This document shows positions 3,163 to 10,642 of a stretch of 62,151 nucleotides of DNA, piece by piece (within the stretch, counting starts at the first letter, position 1; every line of letters starts with the position of its first letter). The notes under the pieces are model-generated. The model searched no databases. It was not told the DNA's origin and saw only the letters and a list, made by a program, of their open reading frames with translations. The position numbers and the translations under genes were made by a program. The stretch comes from Gammaproteobacteria bacterium (lineage in GTDB: Bacteria > Pseudomonadota > Gammaproteobacteria > Ga0077554 > Ga007554), in contig JAKFXX010000016.1 of the NCBI GenBank assembly GCA_021731145.1, forward strand, positions 1 through 62,151. The letters run 5' to 3'.

Positions 3163-3966
3163 TCACTCCGCCCACCCTGGCACATGGCGGCGCGCTGTGC
3201 GCAGTTCGGCATCGAGGACTTTGTAGCCGGGTTCTTTTTTTTCCACCAGCGCCCAAAACTTCGACGAATGATTGAGCTGGACGGTATGACACAGCTCATG
3301 GACAAGCACGCAACGCACCAGGGGTGCGGGCAGGAACAGCAGCTTATAGTTGAGATTGATATTTTTTTGGCGGGAGCAACTTCCCCAACGGGTCTTTTGC
3401 CCTCGGATACGCGCTTGGCGAAAGGATAAGCCGGTTTCACGGCTGATCTGCTCCAGCCAGGGCCGCAGATGAGTCTGGCCTTTTTCCGCCAGCCACCGCC
3501 GCAGCACGGACTTGCACAAGGAAGCATTGTCCACTGCGCCACGCACTACCAGCCGTGCATCGTGACTTTGCGACAATGTTACGCGGTTTGAATCAACGGC
3601 CTGGTATTCGACCTGCCAGATCTCATCAATGGCATGTAGCGTTATCGTGTCGGGAAGGGTGTCGTGGGCGTTAGGTACTAGCCATTGCCGTTGTTCATTG
3701 ACCCGTTGCAGGGTCTTGTTAATCCATGCCTGTTTCTCATGCACCAGGGCCGGAATGCGCCGGTGATCAAAGCCGCGCGGCACCACCACTTCCACCAGCC
3801 CCAGCGGCGAAATCTTCAGGCAGACGCGCATTGCCTTGGCACTTTCCCGAATGGAGTATGCGGTTGGCTCTTTCGAGAGTATGGCCGCTCTCTGGCATCC
3901 TGCCATCGCGGCACTCGTGCATCCATGCACATCGGATGCACGAGGTAGAGCAATTGCCGGAATCAT
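3163..3966 (-). CDS. YgjP-type (M48-like/DUF45) metallopeptidase domain protein
   Basis: The product has the YgjP/DUF45 architecture: a YSIRESAKAMRVCLKIS strand region, the TRWGSCS motif, and a zinc-binding HELCH motif followed by NHSSKFW. Substrate is unknown for the family. The ATG at 3966 lies two bases after the stop of the upstream cytochrome gene and gives 267 residues; the recognisable domain starts only near residue 38. Residues 9-25 are encoded by a copy of a dispersed hairpin repeat (3894-3940), so the annotated N-terminus may be repeat-derived and the true start may lie further in. Confidence 0.8.
   Translation of the reverse strand: MIPAIALPRASDVHGCTSAAMAGCQRAAILSKEPTAYSIRESAKAMRVCLKISPLGLVEVVVPRGFDHRRIPALVHEKQAWINKTLQRVNEQRQWLVPNAHDTLPDTITLHAIDEIWQVEYQAVDSNRVTLSQSHDARLVVRGAVDNASLCKSVLRRWLAEKGQTHLRPWLEQISRETGLSFRQARIRGQKTRWGSCSRQKNINLNYKLLFLPAPLVRCVLVHELCHTVQLNHSSKFWALVEKKEPGYKVLDAELRTARRHVPGWAE
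3894..3940 (+). repeat. Dispersed hairpin repeat, copy 1
   Basis: The element begins GGCATCCTGCC, continues GCGGCACT, and contains the central hairpin GTGCA-TCCA-TGCAC, ending in CGGATGCA. It aligns with the tandem copies at 18076-18177 and with 20729-20790. The central stem differs between copies but stays paired. It lies inside the 5' end of the YgjP-type gene. Confidence 0.7.
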
Positions 3967-3968
3967 TA

Positions 3969-5300
3969 CTACCGCAGCGCCTCGCGTGGATGCTTGATCT
4001 TCGGCCAATAGGTGTCGACATTGAACGATGGGCTATGGGCTGGAGTGTGGCATTGCGCGCACATCTTTTCGCGCGGCCAATCGGCGTTTCCTACAGGCTT
4101 CACGCCACTTGATGCAGCGTGCGCCTGGGCAGGGCCATGGCAGGACTCGCACTGCACATTGCTCAGATTGCCGGTAGTGTCGTCGTCGATGAAGCCGCCG
4201 GGCTTGTTGAACCCCACGGTGTGACAGACGATGCAGTTGGGATCAAATGCCTTGTTGACCCGGCGCAGCGTGCCATAGGCATGGGCGTGACGGCTGGCGT
4301 GCCAGATCTTGTGCTGCTCGCCATGGCAGCTTTGGCAGGCTTGCGCCCCCGCATATGGGCTCTCCCCCGCCTGCTGCGCCTTGGTGATCTTTACGCTCTT
4401 TTGGTAATCCGCCTCGACCTGGGTGTTGTATTGCTTGTACCAGGCCTTCAGGCGCGGCGCATCGGGGGTGGTTTTGGGCAGCGGGATGATCTTGTGCTTC
4501 CAGGACTGAATCGCCCCTGCGCTGTCCAGCGCGATGTCGAGCCGTCCCAGGCGCATGCCGCGCGACCCCGGTTGCAACACCAGTGTGTTGTCCACCTTTT
4601 TCGGTTCGCTGTATTTTTCGTAGGCGGAGCGGATCAGCAGGATGTCCACCTGCTGTAACGGCAACAGACGGCGCGCGTCATCCGGCGTCAACGTGGTGGC
4701 CAGCACCGTGAGCGTACCGCTTTGTTTGGCGTGTTGCAGGGCTTGGGCCAGTGCCTCGCCGTCGCTGCCCGGCGCTGTCATCGTGTGGCTTCCTCCCATC
4801 TGCTGGAGGGGCGACTCACGGGGGTCTATCCAGCTAAAAAAGGCCAGTGTCCTGCCGTTGCGCGTGATGTTCCGTTCAGTCTGGAAGGTGGCACCACTCC
4901 AGTTGCTCGCCACCCACGGCAGCGTGTCATGCGTGATGAAATCCGTGCCGTAGGCGAGATCGGCCCATTGCACGCCAATGGCGTCATAATTGAGCGTCTT
5001 GACGCCCTTGAGTATGTATTCCCCGGTGAGACGGTCATGCACCGACTCGCTGCGCATGAAACCACCGGACGAGATCAGGAACAGGCCCGGTTTTTCCTTG
5101 CGCAAACGGTCAATCATGGTGGCCTGACGCCGGATGCCGCCAAAATCCCCCTCCAGACTGCACCCGCAGGGCTCCAGCTCGCCGTCGAGATTGCCGGTGT
5201 AGATGAGGGTGATGCCGTTCTTCCCCGCTGTGGCGGCCTGGCTGCTGAACAGCAGCACAAATGCCAGCCCGAAGAAGATAGCCATGACGCTTTTTTTCAT
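3969..5300 (-). CDS. UshA-like domain fused to tetraheme cytochrome c
   Basis: A 443-residue exported protein. Residues 1-26 form a signal peptide (MKKSVMAIFF start, cleavage near ATA-GKN). The N-terminal half resembles UshA/5'-nucleotidase-type metallophosphatases, with the opening LIYTGNLDGELEPCGC and FLISSGG segments, but it lacks an obvious full set of metal ligands. The C-terminal part has four heme-binding motifs, CQSCH (322), CIVCH (356), CESCH (384) and CAQCH (414). It is probably a periplasmic electron-transfer or sensor protein; the reaction is unknown. The start at 5300 is chosen for the signal peptide. It lies between the DUF1566 gene and the YgjP-type gene on the same strand. Confidence 0.85.
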   Translation of the reverse strand: MKKSVMAIFFGLAFVLLFSSQAATAGKNGITLIYTGNLDGELEPCGCSLEGDFGGIRRQATMIDRLRKEKPGLFLISSGGFMRSESVHDRLTGEYILKGVKTLNYDAIGVQWADLAYGTDFITHDTLPWVASNWSGATFQTERNITRNGRTLAFFSWIDPRESPLQQMGGSHTMTAPGSDGEALAQALQHAKQSGTLTVLATTLTPDDARRLLPLQQVDILLIRSAYEKYSEPKKVDNTLVLQPGSRGMRLGRLDIALDSAGAIQSWKHKIIPLPKTTPDAPRLKAWYKQYNTQVEADYQKSVKITKAQQAGESPYAGAQACQSCHGEQHKIWHASRHAHAYGTLRRVNKAFDPNCIVCHTVGFNKPGGFIDDDTTGNLSNVQCESCHGPAQAHAASSGVKPVGNADWPREKMCAQCHTPAHSPSFNVDTYWPKIKHPREALR

Positions 5301-5385
5301 GATGTTCCCGCAACCCAAGAGTTAGAGCCCTATCAGCCAGTCACTCTATTATCGGTGTTAACGGCGGGGGAGGGAAGGGAGGCGA

Positions 5386-5925
5386 TTAGTGTTGTGTGCC
5401 TTTTCCGCCACGCACCAAGCGAACGAAGCGTGCTTCCCCTTTGTCACCGGGAGTTGCGCCCTCCGGGCCGAAACTCAGGATATAGGCGTCATTGTCAAAG
5501 CCCTTGCGCGGGGTGGCGGACCAGAACGGGGCGGCGGGGGTGGCCGGGAAGAGCGTCAGGTTGATGCGGGGATCAGTGCATTGCCGCTCCGCGATCATGG
5601 CCAGTTCGGGGATGTGGGGGACGCGCCAGTCGCCATGCTTTGCATAGCCCCCCTTTTTGTTGAGTTGATTGGCCGCGTCCAGGGCGCCCTGCCAGGTATA
5701 GCCGCCCGGCGTGCCCTTGCACGTCGCGCCATCCCAGCTTTGATCCAGCGCGCAACGCATCCAGGTCAGCCCCGACTGGCTATCGGTTAGCGTGCCATCA
5801 CCATTATCCTTGAAGCGCTCGGTGGGTGTGGACATGGGACGGGACCCAGTATCGCAGGTGTAACTCCAAGCTGGCGCAGCACAAGCCATTGCCGCGCACA
5901 GAAAAAAAAAGTGTTTTGCCGCCAT
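5386..5925 (-). CDS. Exported DUF1566 (Lcl C-terminal-like) domain protein
   Basis: The 179-residue product starts with a signal peptide (MAAKHFFFLCAAMACAAPAWS) and then shows the DUF1566 pattern: RFKDNGDGTLTDSQSGLTWM, the WQGALDAANQLN helix, GDWRVPHIPELAMI, and FWSATPRKG near the end. Such domains occur in secreted and surface proteins with no single known function. AAGGAG precedes the ATG at 5925 at good spacing. It is part of the minus-strand run of exported proteins from 7516 to 3163, 75 bases after the cytochrome gene. Confidence 0.85.
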   Translation of the reverse strand: MAAKHFFFLCAAMACAAPAWSYTCDTGSRPMSTPTERFKDNGDGTLTDSQSGLTWMRCALDQSWDGATCKGTPGGYTWQGALDAANQLNKKGGYAKHGDWRVPHIPELAMIAERQCTDPRINLTLFPATPAAPFWSATPRKGFDNDAYILSFGPEGATPGDKGEARFVRLVRGGKGTQH

Positions 5926-6004
5926 AATCCGACTCCTTGGTGTTTTGTTCTTCAAGAAAAAGGCCGCCCCAGGTTGAAGCGGGCGGCCTCTTGGTTTGGC
6001 AGGA

Positions 6005-6487
6005 TTATGGATAGCCCGCGCCGCTACGCACTTCGACCGGCGGATGCTGCCTGGTATTCTCGCCTGGTTTGAGCTTGAAGCCACGGTGCATGTAGAAGGA
6101 ATAGGCCTCCAGCGCCTTCATTTCCTTGCTGTTGGCGTCCAGCGCCTGTCCTTCCAGCGGCACCTGAATGCACCAGTTGATCATATCGCGCAGCGGAATC
6201 ACCTGTCCCAGATTGGCCTGCCACTTGGGGAAGGTGTGGGGGTTGGACGCCGCCGCATCCGGGTGGCAATTGGCGCAGGCCAGCCCGTTCTTGCCGAGCT
6301 TGGCGCTATGCCACAGGTCATCCCCCTCCTTTACAGTTGCCATAAGGTCTTTGTATTGGGCGGCCAGCTCGTCCTGGGTAAACGGTTTTCTGGCCTGCGC
6401 GGGTTCGATGGCAAGAAAGGCAAAGGAGACGATAGCAACAGTGGTGCCGGTGAACGTGAATAAACGGCTTTTGATATTTGATTTCAT
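6005..6487 (-). CDS. Periplasmic monoheme cytochrome c
   Basis: The 160-residue product has a signal peptide ending near residue 32 (AQA-RKP) and one heme motif, CANCH at 71-75, followed by a pattern (PKWQANLGQVIPLRDMINWC, then MKALEAYSFYM) like SoxA/TsdA-class cytochrome domains. The substrate is not evident. AAGGAGG is 7 bases before the ATG at 6487; an ATG six bases earlier is too close to it. The gene follows the metallophosphoesterase by 12 bases and is almost certainly co-transcribed with it. Confidence 0.88.
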   Translation of the reverse strand: MKSNIKSRLFTFTGTTVAIVSFAFLAIEPAQARKPFTQDELAAQYKDLMATVKEGDDLWHSAKLGKNGLACANCHPDAAASNPHTFPKWQANLGQVIPLRDMINWCIQVPLEGQALDANSKEMKALEAYSFYMHRGFKLKPGENTRQHPPVEVRSGAGYP

Positions 6488-6499
6488 TGACATGCCTCC

Positions 6500-7516
6500 T
6501 TAAAGTTTCACGCCTTTCTTGACGCCTTCCGGCAGTAGATCCGCCCACGCATCATAGTGCAGCGCACCGCTGAACTCCTTTTCCAGGTCGATGTATTGCG
6601 TACCCAGGCCGTCCAGAATGTCGCCTGGATCGACGCGATTCATCTTGATGTCGGGGAAGGGCAGCTCGATGCCAGGGTAGGGCCAGGGCCAGGAGGTAGA
6701 CAGGGTGCCGATGGAGGACAGGTTGCCTATCCGGTTATACACTACCTGATGCACGTGACCGTGGAACGCCATCACCCGCTCGAAGCCGGAAAGAATCTCG
6801 CGGATTTGCGGCGCGTCCTCGGTTTGAAAGTTCCAGCGCGGGTAATAATCCCACAACGGCGAATGAGTGAAGACAACCACCGGGGTATCGGGCTTCAGTT
6901 TTTTAACGTCTTTCTTCAACCATTCAAGCTGCTCTTCACGGACGCCCCACAGGCCGCAATGATGGCACTCCAGTTCTTCCATGAAGCCCATTCTTTCATC
7001 CGGCGTCAGACCCTTCATCGTCCAGAAATCGCGCACCAGAATAGAGTTCATGCCGATGAAGTGAACCCCTTTGTGATCGAAGGACCACGTCGGACTGCCG
7101 AACATATCACGCCATGCCTGACCCATGTCCAGATACCAGTCGTGTTCGCCGGGGATAACCTTGAGTGGCACTTTCAGCTTGGAGAGTATTCGCTTACCCT
7201 TCTCCAGCTCCGCACGCTTGCCTGATTGGCCGATGTCGCCGAGATAGACGACAAAATCCGGCAGGGGATTCATGTTGTTGACGTCATCGACAGCCTTTTT
7301 CAGGATGCCGTCGAACTTGTGGTCAGGGATGTCGTAGAGATGTGCATCGGTCAGAATCGCAAACCGGAACGGTGTAAGCCGGCTGTTGCCCGCCGCCTCC
7401 GCGACCTGCACCATGCCGAAGGAAACCCCCGCAGCGCTGGCTACCAGCGTCGCCAGCCCCGCCTTGCCCGTGATGCCCAAAAATTCCCTTCGATTCATTT
7501 TGCTGAAATCAGTCAT
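6500..7516 (-). CDS. Tat-exported calcineurin-like metallophosphoesterase
   Basis: A 338-residue protein with a twin-arginine signal (NRREFLGITGKAGLATL). The metal-binding motifs of the superfamily follow in order: LTDAHLYD, YLGDIGQSG, GEHDW (a variant of GNHD), THSPLW and FHGHVHQ. It should act as a phosphatase or phosphodiesterase in the periplasm; the Tat signal suggests that it folds and binds its metals before export. GAGGAGG precedes the ATG. It is the first gene of a probable operon with the cytochrome and DUF1566 genes. Substrate unknown. Confidence 0.9.
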   Translation of the reverse strand: MTDFSKMNRREFLGITGKAGLATLVASAAGVSFGMVQVAEAAGNSRLTPFRFAILTDAHLYDIPDHKFDGILKKAVDDVNNMNPLPDFVVYLGDIGQSGKRAELEKGKRILSKLKVPLKVIPGEHDWYLDMGQAWRDMFGSPTWSFDHKGVHFIGMNSILVRDFWTMKGLTPDERMGFMEELECHHCGLWGVREEQLEWLKKDVKKLKPDTPVVVFTHSPLWDYYPRWNFQTEDAPQIREILSGFERVMAFHGHVHQVVYNRIGNLSSIGTLSTSWPWPYPGIELPFPDIKMNRVDPGDILDGLGTQYIDLEKEFSGALHYDAWADLLPEGVKKGVKL

Positions 7517-7754
7517 TGCAGTGCTCCTCCTCTATGCTGTGGGGTGTAAATCCGTTTTCGGCATCTTTGTGTTTAATCTTTAGTCTTGGTCTTAATCTAT
7601 ATATATTTTTCATCGAAAAACAGTGATGCCACCACCGCTCTATCTTGGGGTAGATGATGGTGAAAAAATGTTCCGGCAAGTTGTTGAGCCCGCCGAACCC
7701 ATTAGAGGAACCTCTGATTTATTCAAAGTCTCCTAAAATTAAGTGCGGTTTTGA

Positions 7755-8447
7755 CTATACGCTTTTTTTGCCGGTCGTCAATAAACCATCAAAAGTCGCA
7801 ATCTGCCTATGTCCCGCCGCCGCATCCAGGGCACCTTCGCGTACCAGCCACACCGTCTGCATCCCCGCCGCGTGAGCCGCATCGAGCTCTTCCTTGATGT
7901 CGGAGAGGAACAGGATTTCGCTGGGATCGGTGTCGATGGCCTCTGCGATGGCGTGATAGGAGGCCACCTCTCGTTTGTTGCCAACTGTGGTGTCGAAATA
8001 CCCGGAAAATAGCGGCGTCAGGTCGCCAAATCCGGTGTGTGCGAAAAGCAGTTTTTGTGCATGAACGGAGCCGGAGGAATAGACACAAAGCCTTATGCCC
8101 TGCCCGTGCCATGCTTTGAGATTGCGCACGGCGTCTTCATAGACATGGCCCTTGAATGCGCCACGCCGGTAGCCGTCCTCCCAGATCATCCCCTGCAGAG
8201 CCTTGAGGGGAGTGATCTTTTTGTCCTCATCAATCCAACGGATGAGTTGCTCGGTGATCTGGTTGTCGCTGAAGTCGCGCTCCACAATATGCGTTACATC
8301 GTTCAGCAGCGTGCGCACTGCCGCATCATGCGCATGATCGCGCACAAAATCCGCCATGCGTTCCCTGGCATAGGGAAAGAGCACATCTTTCACGAAGGAC
8401 AGTGAGGAGGTAGTGCCTTCGATGTCGGTGAGGATGGCTTTGATCAT
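7755..8447 (-). CDS. mtnC: Acireductone synthase (enolase-phosphatase E1)
   Basis: MtnC enolises and dephosphorylates 2,3-diketo-5-methylthiopentyl-1-phosphate in methionine salvage. The 230-residue HAD-family product begins with the diagnostic IKAILTDIEGTTSSLSFVKDVLFPYA (the nucleophile Asp is in TDIEGTT), and has VYSSGSVHAQKLLF and FLSDIKEELDAA. No other methionine-salvage gene is in the window. An 11 bp inverted repeat lies in the upstream region (8452-8537). Confidence 0.95.
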   Translation of the reverse strand: MIKAILTDIEGTTSSLSFVKDVLFPYARERMADFVRDHAHDAAVRTLLNDVTHIVERDFSDNQITEQLIRWIDEDKKITPLKALQGMIWEDGYRRGAFKGHVYEDAVRNLKAWHGQGIRLCVYSSGSVHAQKLLFAHTGFGDLTPLFSGYFDTTVGNKREVASYHAIAEAIDTDPSEILFLSDIKEELDAAHAAGMQTVWLVREGALDAAAGHRQIATFDGLLTTGKKSV

Positions 8448-8451
8448 CGGT

Positions 8452-8537
8452 GATTCCTGAATTTCAAAATGACGGATACGGACATTTTTGCAGCAGCGCA
8501 GCTATTTGCAAAGTTTTTAGCAAGTCATTCAGGAATC
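8452..8537. repeat. Spaced inverted repeat upstream of mtnC
   Basis: GATTCCTGAAT (8452-8462) and ATTCAGGAATC (8527-8537) are perfect 11 bp complements separated by 64 bases, directly before the mtnC start. They could close a long stem in an mtnC leader. I do not recognise a known riboswitch between them. Confidence 0.45.
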
Positions 8538-9074: not shown

Positions 9075-9260
9075 TCATTTATCGCGCTCTTTGCGCAATA
9101 CTTCCGCAGTTAGCCGAACAATTTTATGGCCCTTTACTACGACAATGGCTGTGTCAGTCTGTATTGCCTGCTTGCGTGCCAATGCTGCTGCACGCTTTAT
9201 CGCCGCCAGGGAGGTGATCAGATCTTTGTCTTTCGCGGCATCAAGTTCTTGCTGGATCAT
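9075..9260 (-). CDS. Small protein coupled to the zeta-like kinase
   Basis: A 61-residue charged, probably helical protein (IQQELDAAKDKDLITSLAAIK, then KRAAALARKQAIQTDTAIVVVKGHKIVRL). Its ATG overlaps the stop of the upstream zeta-like gene as ATGA, which implies translational coupling. Its position and size suggest a partner or antitoxin of the kinase, but no family is recognised; epsilon antitoxins normally precede zeta and look different. Confidence 0.6.
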   Translation of the reverse strand: MIQQELDAAKDKDLITSLAAIKRAAALARKQAIQTDTAIVVVKGHKIVRLTAEVLRKERDK

Positions 9261-9772
9261 GGTCTTTCCCCCCACTCAATCATTACAGGCTCGCCGCCCG
9301 CGTTGTCATATAGCGCCCAAGCATCGACTGCAGCTCGATAATGACGCTCAAAGTTTACCCGCCCTGCCGAAAAACGTCTGCGGATCACATGCTCGGGAAT
9401 GTTATGTCCGCCTTGCCGAACCCATTCGGCTACTCGGGCAATCGCCACCCCGGCTGATGGCAGACCGAGGAAGAACAAACTGATGTGATAGCCCAGCCCG
9501 CGCCACTCACGAATGTGGCGCAAATAGCCCAAACCGGACAAGGTGGTTTCAAATGCGAAACTTTCCCCGCTTTCGGCACAAGCGGCGATCTCCTGCAACA
9601 TCAACCGTCCGGCTTTGATTGCCTCAGCCTCAGGGGCAAAGGGTGACAAGCCAGCGGCAATAAGGTCGGCGTTGATAAAACGCGGACACTGTGCTTCTTC
9701 CGGCAAAAATGCGCGGGCAAAAGTCGTTTTTCCCGCCCCATTTGGCCCTGCAATTATAATGATTTTTTTCAT
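9257..9772 (-). CDS. Zeta-toxin-like P-loop kinase
   Basis: The 171-residue product starts with a Walker A motif (IIIAGPNGAGKTTFA), followed by FINADLIAAGLSP, with the Asp expected to act in phosphoryl transfer, and a conserved ESGESFAFETTLSG segment, as in chromosomal zeta-like proteins. Zeta toxins phosphorylate UDP-N-acetylglucosamine, but many short chromosomal homologues are uncharacterised, so toxicity is an inference. The ATG overlaps the stop of a methyltransferase/RhuM remnant upstream, and the 61-residue gene follows with an ATGA overlap. Confidence 0.8.
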   Translation of the reverse strand: MKKIIIIAGPNGAGKTTFARAFLPEEAQCPRFINADLIAAGLSPFAPEAEAIKAGRLMLQEIAACAESGESFAFETTLSGLGYLRHIREWRGLGYHISLFFLGLPSAGVAIARVAEWVRQGGHNIPEHVIRRRFSAGRVNFERHYRAAVDAWALYDNAGGEPVMIEWGERP

Positions 9773-10099: not shown

Positions 10100-10642
10100 T
10101 CACTCAGCACCCACCCCCTCCAACTCCACCGCATCACGTCCCCAATCCGCCGCATAAACACCCGCGTCCACAAAGCGCCGAAAACTCGAATACGGCCATT
10201 CCAGCGGTGAAGATGCCAAACCATGCTTCACGGGGTTGAAGTGGATGTAATCAACGTGGCGGGCAAAGTCCTCCTCATCACGGATCTGATGTTCCCAGTA
10301 GCGGTGCTGCCATACCGCCTGTTCACGCCTCCTGGTTTGGGAGGCATTAGCCACGCCACGTAACGCCGGATCGCAATCCTTGGTGAACCGGGTTTTGATT
10401 AATCGCCACCGTGTTGCAAAGTCTGCATCATCTGGTGGCATTGTCCAGATACAGTGCAGATGATCAGGCAACACAACCATCGCATCAAGTGTGAATGGGC
10501 GTTGCGAACGTACTTTTCGTACCGCCTCGCGCAACACCCCCACCGCCCCCGCCGAGGCCAATATCGGCCGCCGTTGCTCCGTCACAACGGTGAAGAAAAA
10601 TGAACCGCCGGGCATGAAAGATCGCCGATATCTCATTGCCAT
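10100..10642 (-). mobile_element. REP-associated tyrosine transposase (RAYT)
   Basis: A 180-residue Y1/HUH transposase of the TnpA-REP group. It has the opening MRYRRSFMPGGSFFFTVVT, the metal-binding HUH motif in LPDHLHCIWTMP, and the catalytic tyrosine in HVDYIHFNPVKHGL followed by WPYSSF. These enzymes cut and move REP hairpins, and REP elements flank the gene on both sides. Length and motifs are complete, so the gene may be functional. The unit sits within remnants of a methyltransferase gene and separates two versions of its 5' end. Confidence 0.93.

Follow-up and report, generated by a model that had tools for sequence, protein, structure and literature searches.

A Rare but Inseparable Gene Pair

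The window analyzed here, a 62,151-nt stretch of a Gammaproteobacteria bacterium genome (assembly GCA_021731145.1, contig JAKFXX010000016.1), carries adjacent genes for a metallophosphoesterase (MPP) exported by the twin-arginine translocation (Tat) pathway and for a SoxA/TsdA-type monoheme cytochrome c. These form an obligatory gene pair: the MPP family is rare, yet its gene is inseparable from that of the cytochrome. We read the pair, with slightly less than even confidence, as the putative core of a periplasmic unit for the oxidation of reduced sulfur.

A scan for the MPP, with one genome per species, returned 180 relatives, from which the best 80 loci were studied together with six other loci (86 in total). 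The cytochrome gene adjoins the MPP gene in 85 of the 86, and the exception, L030, ends at a contig edge. These loci are distributed over about nine phyla, namely the Pseudomonadota, Aquificota, Spirochaetota (Leptospiraceae), Planctomycetota, Acidobacteriota, Myxococcota, Nitrospirota, Nitrospinota, and Binatota. Because this sample was centered on the query, an independent one was drawn, consisting of 398 genomes of Pseudomonadota and 246 of Planctomycetota; these numbers include the window's host and the seed genome for the Planctomycetota. The MPP was present in three of the 398 Pseudomonadota genomes, and the same three were the only ones with a cytochrome match above 150 bits (the next scored 88 bits). 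Among the Planctomycetota, 13 of 246 genomes encode the MPP, with the cytochrome adjacent in 12 of the 13 and the 13th locus ending just after the MPP gene. The pair is thus adjacent in 15/16 loci of the combined sample.

A Cassette beside an UshA-like Gene

A first-pass annotation of positions 3163–7516 had described a single cluster of a Tat phosphoesterase, a monoheme cytochrome, an UshA-like tetraheme protein, and a DUF1566 protein, and had named a lack of conserved linkage in other genomes as its refutation. These genes are real, as judged by open reading frames and family matches, and all are encoded on the minus strand, in the order MPP, cytochrome, DUF1566, UshA-like, and YgjP. The features of the locus are as follows:

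6500–7516, minus strand: MPP, Tat-exported calcineurin-like metallophosphoesterase, predicted GpdQ/purple acid phosphatase fold (PF00149, 48 bits)
6005–6493, minus strand: SoxA/TsdA-type monoheme cytochrome c with a Sec-type signal (PF21342, 49.7 bits)
5386–5925, minus strand: exported DUF1566/Lcl_C protein, the third cassette gene in Proteobacteria (PF07603, 101 bits)
5964–5982, minus strand: terminator-like hairpin and T-run in the cytochrome/DUF1566 gap (from sequence)
5380–7782, no strand: extent of the cassette against the cassette-free site of genome G001 (blastn)
3969–5300, minus strand: bystander, UshA-like protein with a PCGC motif and four C-terminal hemes (NF041198, 246 bits)
3163–3837, minus strand: bystander, YgjP-like metallopeptidase, start uncertain (mechanical open reading frame from 4008) (PF01863, 162 bits)
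7755–8447, minus strand: flanking HAD hydrolase (enolase-phosphatase-like) at the upstream cassette edge (PF00702)

The MPP and cytochrome genes are separated by 6 bp, with a purine-rich ribosome-binding site ahead of each, and the low end of the annotated interval (3163) is the end of the YgjP-family metallopeptidase gene. The boundaries of the cassette were established from four genomes without the MPP, one from the host's genus (G001) and three from its family (G004, G006, and G007), in all of which the HAD, UshA-like, and YgjP genes are direct neighbors with no cassette among them. In G001 (locus L105), blastn places window positions 3962–5379 and 7783–8457 only 30 bp apart, and 5380–7782, lying between these two matching flanks, has no match in the alignment. 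A further member of the family, G005, has the cassette and the UshA-like gene on separate contigs. On the simplest reading of these alignments, the MPP, cytochrome, and DUF1566 genes are a unit of ~2.4 kb that was inserted beside the UshA-like gene, and the cluster first proposed is therefore two things in chance contact. Neighborhood conservation is near-absolute for the MPP and cytochrome and strong for DUF1566 in Proteobacteria, but absent for the UshA-like gene. A putative −35/−10 element at 7781–7754 was no better than chance (three sites vs. 2.5 expected).

The cassette-free sites rule out the UshA-like gene as a member of the functional unit. Its product carries four C-terminal CxxCH motifs and the PCGC motif, scores just below the cut-off of the NCBIfam model for UshA-like PCGU (seleno)proteins (NF041198, 246 vs. 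275 bits), and has GNLDGELEPCGC (G-N-L-D) where a D-x-H metal motif is usual. We did note that the gene is kept beside the YgjP and HAD genes in the host's family.

DUF1566 adjoins the MPP–cytochrome pair in 46 loci, which form one clade (98% SH-aLRT). Hairpins similar to that of the window occur in the cytochrome/DUF1566 gap of four Gallionellaceae loci (L015, L017, L020, and L024), and the two genes overlap in several Burkholderiales. Given this retention of the hairpin in one group and the gene overlap in the other, DUF1566 belongs to the operon; the hairpin perhaps tunes the cytochrome/DUF1566 ratio.

The Metallophosphoesterase

The MPP displays a Tat signal (RR-x-F-L) and exceeds the PF00149 cut-off of 21.5 bits more than twofold. 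The canonical Asp/His metal ligands D57, H59, D94, H218, H254, and H256 are kept at 99–100% and, with E124, H125, and H252, are invariant or nearly so. E124, the counterpart of the metal-binding Asn80 in GpdQ, is present in 81/81 aligned sequences, giving GEHD where GNHD is usual, such that the Asn of this Metallophos motif is replaced. By alignment, the protein is thus predicted to keep the ligands of a dinuclear site with an invariant Glu in place of the usual Asn. The structure model (pLDDT 81) has GpdQ as its top PDB match (Z 25.8) and resembles GpdQ, Rv0805, and purple acid phosphatase in fold and in most metal ligands (Z 19–26), but the MPP differs from these enzymes in its GEHD motif, its Tat export, its WPWPY and WNF motifs, and its fixed cytochrome partner. 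The structural matches displayed did not include SoxB, an absence that shows only that others rank higher, and the score against the CpdA cAMP phosphodiesterase equivalog (NF008359) was 37.4 bits vs. a cut-off of 225.

GEHD by itself was rejected as a mark of cytochrome pairing, being found also in Tat-exported MPPs whose genes have no cytochrome match in their neighborhood, in Burkholderia, Streptomyces, and Gemmatirosa (those of the first two genera are 28–32% identical and have no SoxA-type match in the vicinity). The longer signature, GEHDWYLDMG in the window and GEHDW[YF]LDMG across the group, is therefore the better mark and, combined with CxxCHP...NWC of the cytochrome, offers a clean diagnostic for the module. 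On a Streptomyces plasmid (L164, 3441–5360), a GEHD-type Tat MPP gene that has no SoxA-type cytochrome beside it lies directly behind a cupredoxin gene, an arrangement that perhaps reflects a wider redox-linked MPP family.

The Cytochrome

The cytochrome (162 a.a.) is well above the cut-off of the SoxA/TsdA domain (27 bits) but below the SoxA equivalog TIGR04484 (45.3 vs. 110 bits), and its single CxxCH motif (C73xxC76H77) gives one heme site where TsdA requires two. Its sequence can be aligned to PDB chains of SoxA and TsdA, and the best folds for its model are SoxA (1h31, Z 9.9) and TsdA (Z 9.6), with the next family at 5. In A. vinosum TsdA, the residue aligned to Cys108 is Cys96 (the CxxCH His at 53 served to check the numbering), and Cys108, C73, C76, H77, P78, M104, and W107 are invariant in all homologs aligned. 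The corresponding Cys of SoxA and TsdA is both a heme ligand and the carrier of the sulfur substrate. Alignment and fold thus point to a Cys-type heme site with Cys108 as the candidate axial ligand. Small proteobacterial genomes of a single family (f66 of the phylum sample; L170–L176), which have no MPP, repeatedly carry a different SoxA/TsdA-domain subfamily, with scores of up to 88 bits.

Operon Forms and Neighboring Genes

Three forms of the operon were distinguished. The first comprises a MauG/MbnH-type diheme peroxidase (CCP), the MPP, and the cytochrome, preceded in Aquificota by a putative cupredoxin-type protein (CNIHGWM motif, CarboxypepD_reg domain). The second, seen in the window, comprises the MPP, cytochrome, and DUF1566, frequently accompanied by a divergent LysR gene. 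The third, found in Thiocapsa, Thiohalocapsa, and Burkholderiales, adds SoxY, SoxZ, a high-potential iron–sulfur protein (HiPIP), and a PufC tetraheme protein to the second. A CCP/MauG-type gene precedes the MPP gene in 35 of the 86 loci and in 12 of the 13 independently drawn Planctomycetota loci, and the peroxidase and DUF1566 never occur together in one of the 86; HiPIP is a neighbor in 28, SoxYZ lies in the operon in 19–20, and a cupredoxin-type gene is present in 15. The CCP gene belongs to the same superfamily as MauG and MbnH but, at 258–260 bits to the two models, falls under both cut-offs, and the window has no such gene.

The module SoxY sequences group in one strongly supported clade (99/97), separate from any further SoxY encoded in these genomes, and their swinging arm ends in GGC-X rather than GGCGG. 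Loci with the GGC-X ending are L127, L129, L135, L138, L141–L143, L145, L147, L150, L152, L158, L161, and L163, one of which shows SGC. Given its distinct clade and ending, the module SoxY is a dedicated carrier and not a chance neighbor. In two burkholderial metagenome-assembled genomes (G071 and G073, perhaps incomplete), it is the sole SoxY, with no SoxB above cut-off. The original operon was probably that of peroxidase, MPP, and cytochrome; DUF1566 took the place of the peroxidase once, in Proteobacteria, and the purple-sulfur and burkholderial lineages gained the dedicated SoxY clade, SoxZ, HiPIP, and PufC.

In rhizobia, the plasmid-borne pair is accompanied by SCO, a cupredoxin-type protein, cbb3-type oxidase subunits, a TauE/SafE exporter, and a P-type ATPase, and in one S. 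meliloti strain (pSymA), soxYZ, cytochrome, and flavoprotein genes follow the pair on the opposite strand. The pair was found on large plasmids in 35 Sinorhizobium records. In one of these, S. meliloti pSymA (L116, CP130049.1, 9100–11549), it lies beside cbb3-type oxidase, SCO, and TauE/SafE genes and could serve as a tractable model.

A Putative Sulfur-Oxidation Unit

The first-pass annotation had envisaged phosphoester or sulfur chemistry linked to electron transfer. Sulfur is favored here because of the TsdA/SoxA-type Cys position and fold and the adjacent dedicated SoxYZ, whereas phosphoester or nucleotide use is disfavored because it rested largely on the bystander UshA-like protein with its altered metal motif. 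The exchangeable acceptor-type neighbors (peroxidase, cupredoxin-type protein, HiPIP, PufC, and cbb3-type oxidase) support the proposed link to electron transfer, and the pair probably yields or takes electrons, with each lineage attaching its own acceptor.

SoxB is a dinuclear metallophosphatase-fold enzyme that hydrolyzes an S-sulfonate. In the reading given at the outset, the cytochrome would supply SoxA/TsdA-like chemistry and the MPP the SoxB-like hydrolytic part, an S-sulfonate hydrolysis that may be proposed by analogy with SoxB and is not a claim of homology. The module would be horizontally mobile, and thiosulfate or a thiosulfonate adduct would be its most likely substrate. The cytochrome would attach thiosulfate to its heme-ligating Cys (or to SoxY in lineages that have it) and withdraw electrons, the MPP, as a water-activating dinuclear metal enzyme, would free the terminal sulfonate as sulfate in the manner of SoxB in the Sox system, and the electrons would pass to a host-specific acceptor (peroxidase/cupredoxin, HiPIP–PufC, or cbb3-type oxidase). 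DUF1566 would probably help in folding or docking. The window's host has no SoxYZ; there, the cytochrome Cys would either retain the sulfur or release it as polythionate or in zero-valent form. A more far-reaching version, which we put forward tentatively and consider less probable, is a phylum-crossing, SoxB-independent pathway of thiosulfate/thiosulfonate oxidation, in which the Glu-site GpdQ-type MPP would be an S-sulfonate hydrolase, the one-heme Cys-ligated cytochrome a conjugating oxidase, the wiring (peroxidase, cupredoxin, HiPIP–reaction center, or cbb3 oxidase) host-specific, and SoxYZ secondarily recruited.

The module shares with the Sox system (SoxAX, SoxYZ, and SoxB) a SoxA-type heme domain with the Cys ligand position, a Tat-exported, putatively dinuclear metallohydrolase, and, in some lineages, SoxYZ in the operon, but it has one heme and a GpdQ-type hydrolase outside the SoxB model. 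With TsdA, it shares the catalytic-heme domain fold, the Cys at position 96, and, in phototrophs, the HiPIP neighbor, but the second heme domain is missing and the cytochrome is always paired with a metallophosphoesterase. There is precedent for such a division of labor in Erythrobacter flavus 21-3, where TsdA and SoxB oxidize thiosulfate via tetrathionate (PMC7608252); this pathway likewise combines a Cys-ligated thiosulfate cytochrome with a metallophosphatase-fold hydrolase and acts on tetrathionate rather than on a SoxYZ adduct, but its hydrolase is SoxB and its TsdA is diheme. For Sulfurimonas, SoxH has been cited as making up for the absence of SoxB (PMC11237559).

Several observations weigh against a role in sulfur oxidation. 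The MPP has no match to the SoxB model TIGR04486 (cut-off 550 bits) and is ruled out as a SoxB homolog. The host genome (99.99% complete) contains no match to PF13501 (SoxY), and its best TIGR04486 match, the UshA-like gene, reaches 23 bits; with neither SoxB nor SoxY found above cut-off, dependence on Sox in the host is ruled out. DsrA and flavocytochrome-c sulfide dehydrogenase were likewise not found above cut-off in the host (SQR and sHdr were not searched), such that the host offered no further support for sulfur oxidation. Outside the window's family, 25 of 50 module-bearing genomes encode a true SoxB and, given that about half of the other carriers have it, the module is not simply a SoxB substitute. 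To our knowledge, the planctomycetotal, acidobacteriotal, and myxococcotal carriers are not known sulfur oxidizers as groups, and their operon has the MauG-type peroxidase, not SoxYZ. In Sinorhizobium, soxYZEF-like genes occur in few strains (PMC4053727). The missing host sulfur genes, the SoxB co-occurrence, and the carriers not known as sulfur oxidizers are the reason that we hold the sulfur reading and its SoxB-independent version no more firmly than stated.

The frequency of the CCP/MauG-type gene ahead of the MPP, the cupredoxin-type gene in 15 loci, and the cbb3-type oxidase and SCO genes of rhizobia would also suit a peroxide- or electron-sink unit, in which electrons reach the peroxidase or another acceptor from the SoxA-type cytochrome, aided by the cupredoxin-type protein in loci that encode it, and the MPP supplies or processes an unrelated phosphoester. 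We regard this as unlikely, given that the whole proteobacterial DUF1566 clade retains the pair and its invariant residues with no adjoining CCP, and that a simple electron carrier would not usually have a Cys at the axial position. In purple sulfur bacteria, HiPIP reportedly serves TsdA as an acceptor. Its presence beside the module in 28 loci, together with TsdA being among the closest folds, argues for a one-heme TsdA-like thiosulfate dehydrogenase or tetrathionate reductase, with the MPP acting elsewhere (e.g., in organic phosphoester or sulfate-ester cleavage). This alternative, a rather doubtful one, leaves unexplained why the MPP subfamily is never seen without the cytochrome, and TsdA's second heme is missing here.

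A role in cofactor maturation or copper handling, with a MauG/MbnH-like diheme enzyme modifying the MPP (e.g., at a Trp) and with cupredoxin, SCO, and the P-type ATPase serving metal homeostasis, draws on the sub-threshold MauG and MbnH scores, on the rhizobial SCO, cupredoxin-type, and P-type ATPase genes, and on MPP residue 324 (window about 6547–6545), where all 32 loci that have the MauG-type peroxidase show Trp and those without it mostly Phe. We consider it improbable, as Trp324 also occurs without CCP, including in the window and in Sinorhizobium, and CCP is missing throughout the DUF1566 clade; MauG-type modification of Trp324 was set aside on the same grounds, the column being suggestive but countered by these Trp residues. 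A nucleotide or phosphoester pathway served jointly by the MPP and UshA, with the hemes taking electrons, is very improbable: both hydrolases and both cytochromes do adjoin in the host's genus, but UshA is a bystander of the insertion with an altered metal-site motif, and the cassette-free sites and >80 loci without UshA largely refute it.

The first-pass annotation did not recognize the cluster as a described operon, and this agrees with our search of open-access PMC full text, where no description of the module was found and the opened co-mentions of metallophosphoesterase and thiosulfate were unrelated. Current annotations of the module, that of S. meliloti pSymA among them, say no more than "metallophosphoesterase" and "hypothetical protein". 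If the sulfur-oxidation reading is true, a second metallophosphoesterase family would perform the job of SoxB, and genomes scored as thiosulfate-negative for want of SoxB (many Gallionellaceae, Planctomycetota, and Acidobacteriota) would need re-reading.

Elsewhere in the window, two minus-strand open reading frames were judged by eye to resemble a zeta-toxin-like P-loop kinase (9257–9772) and a REP-associated transposase (10100–10642).

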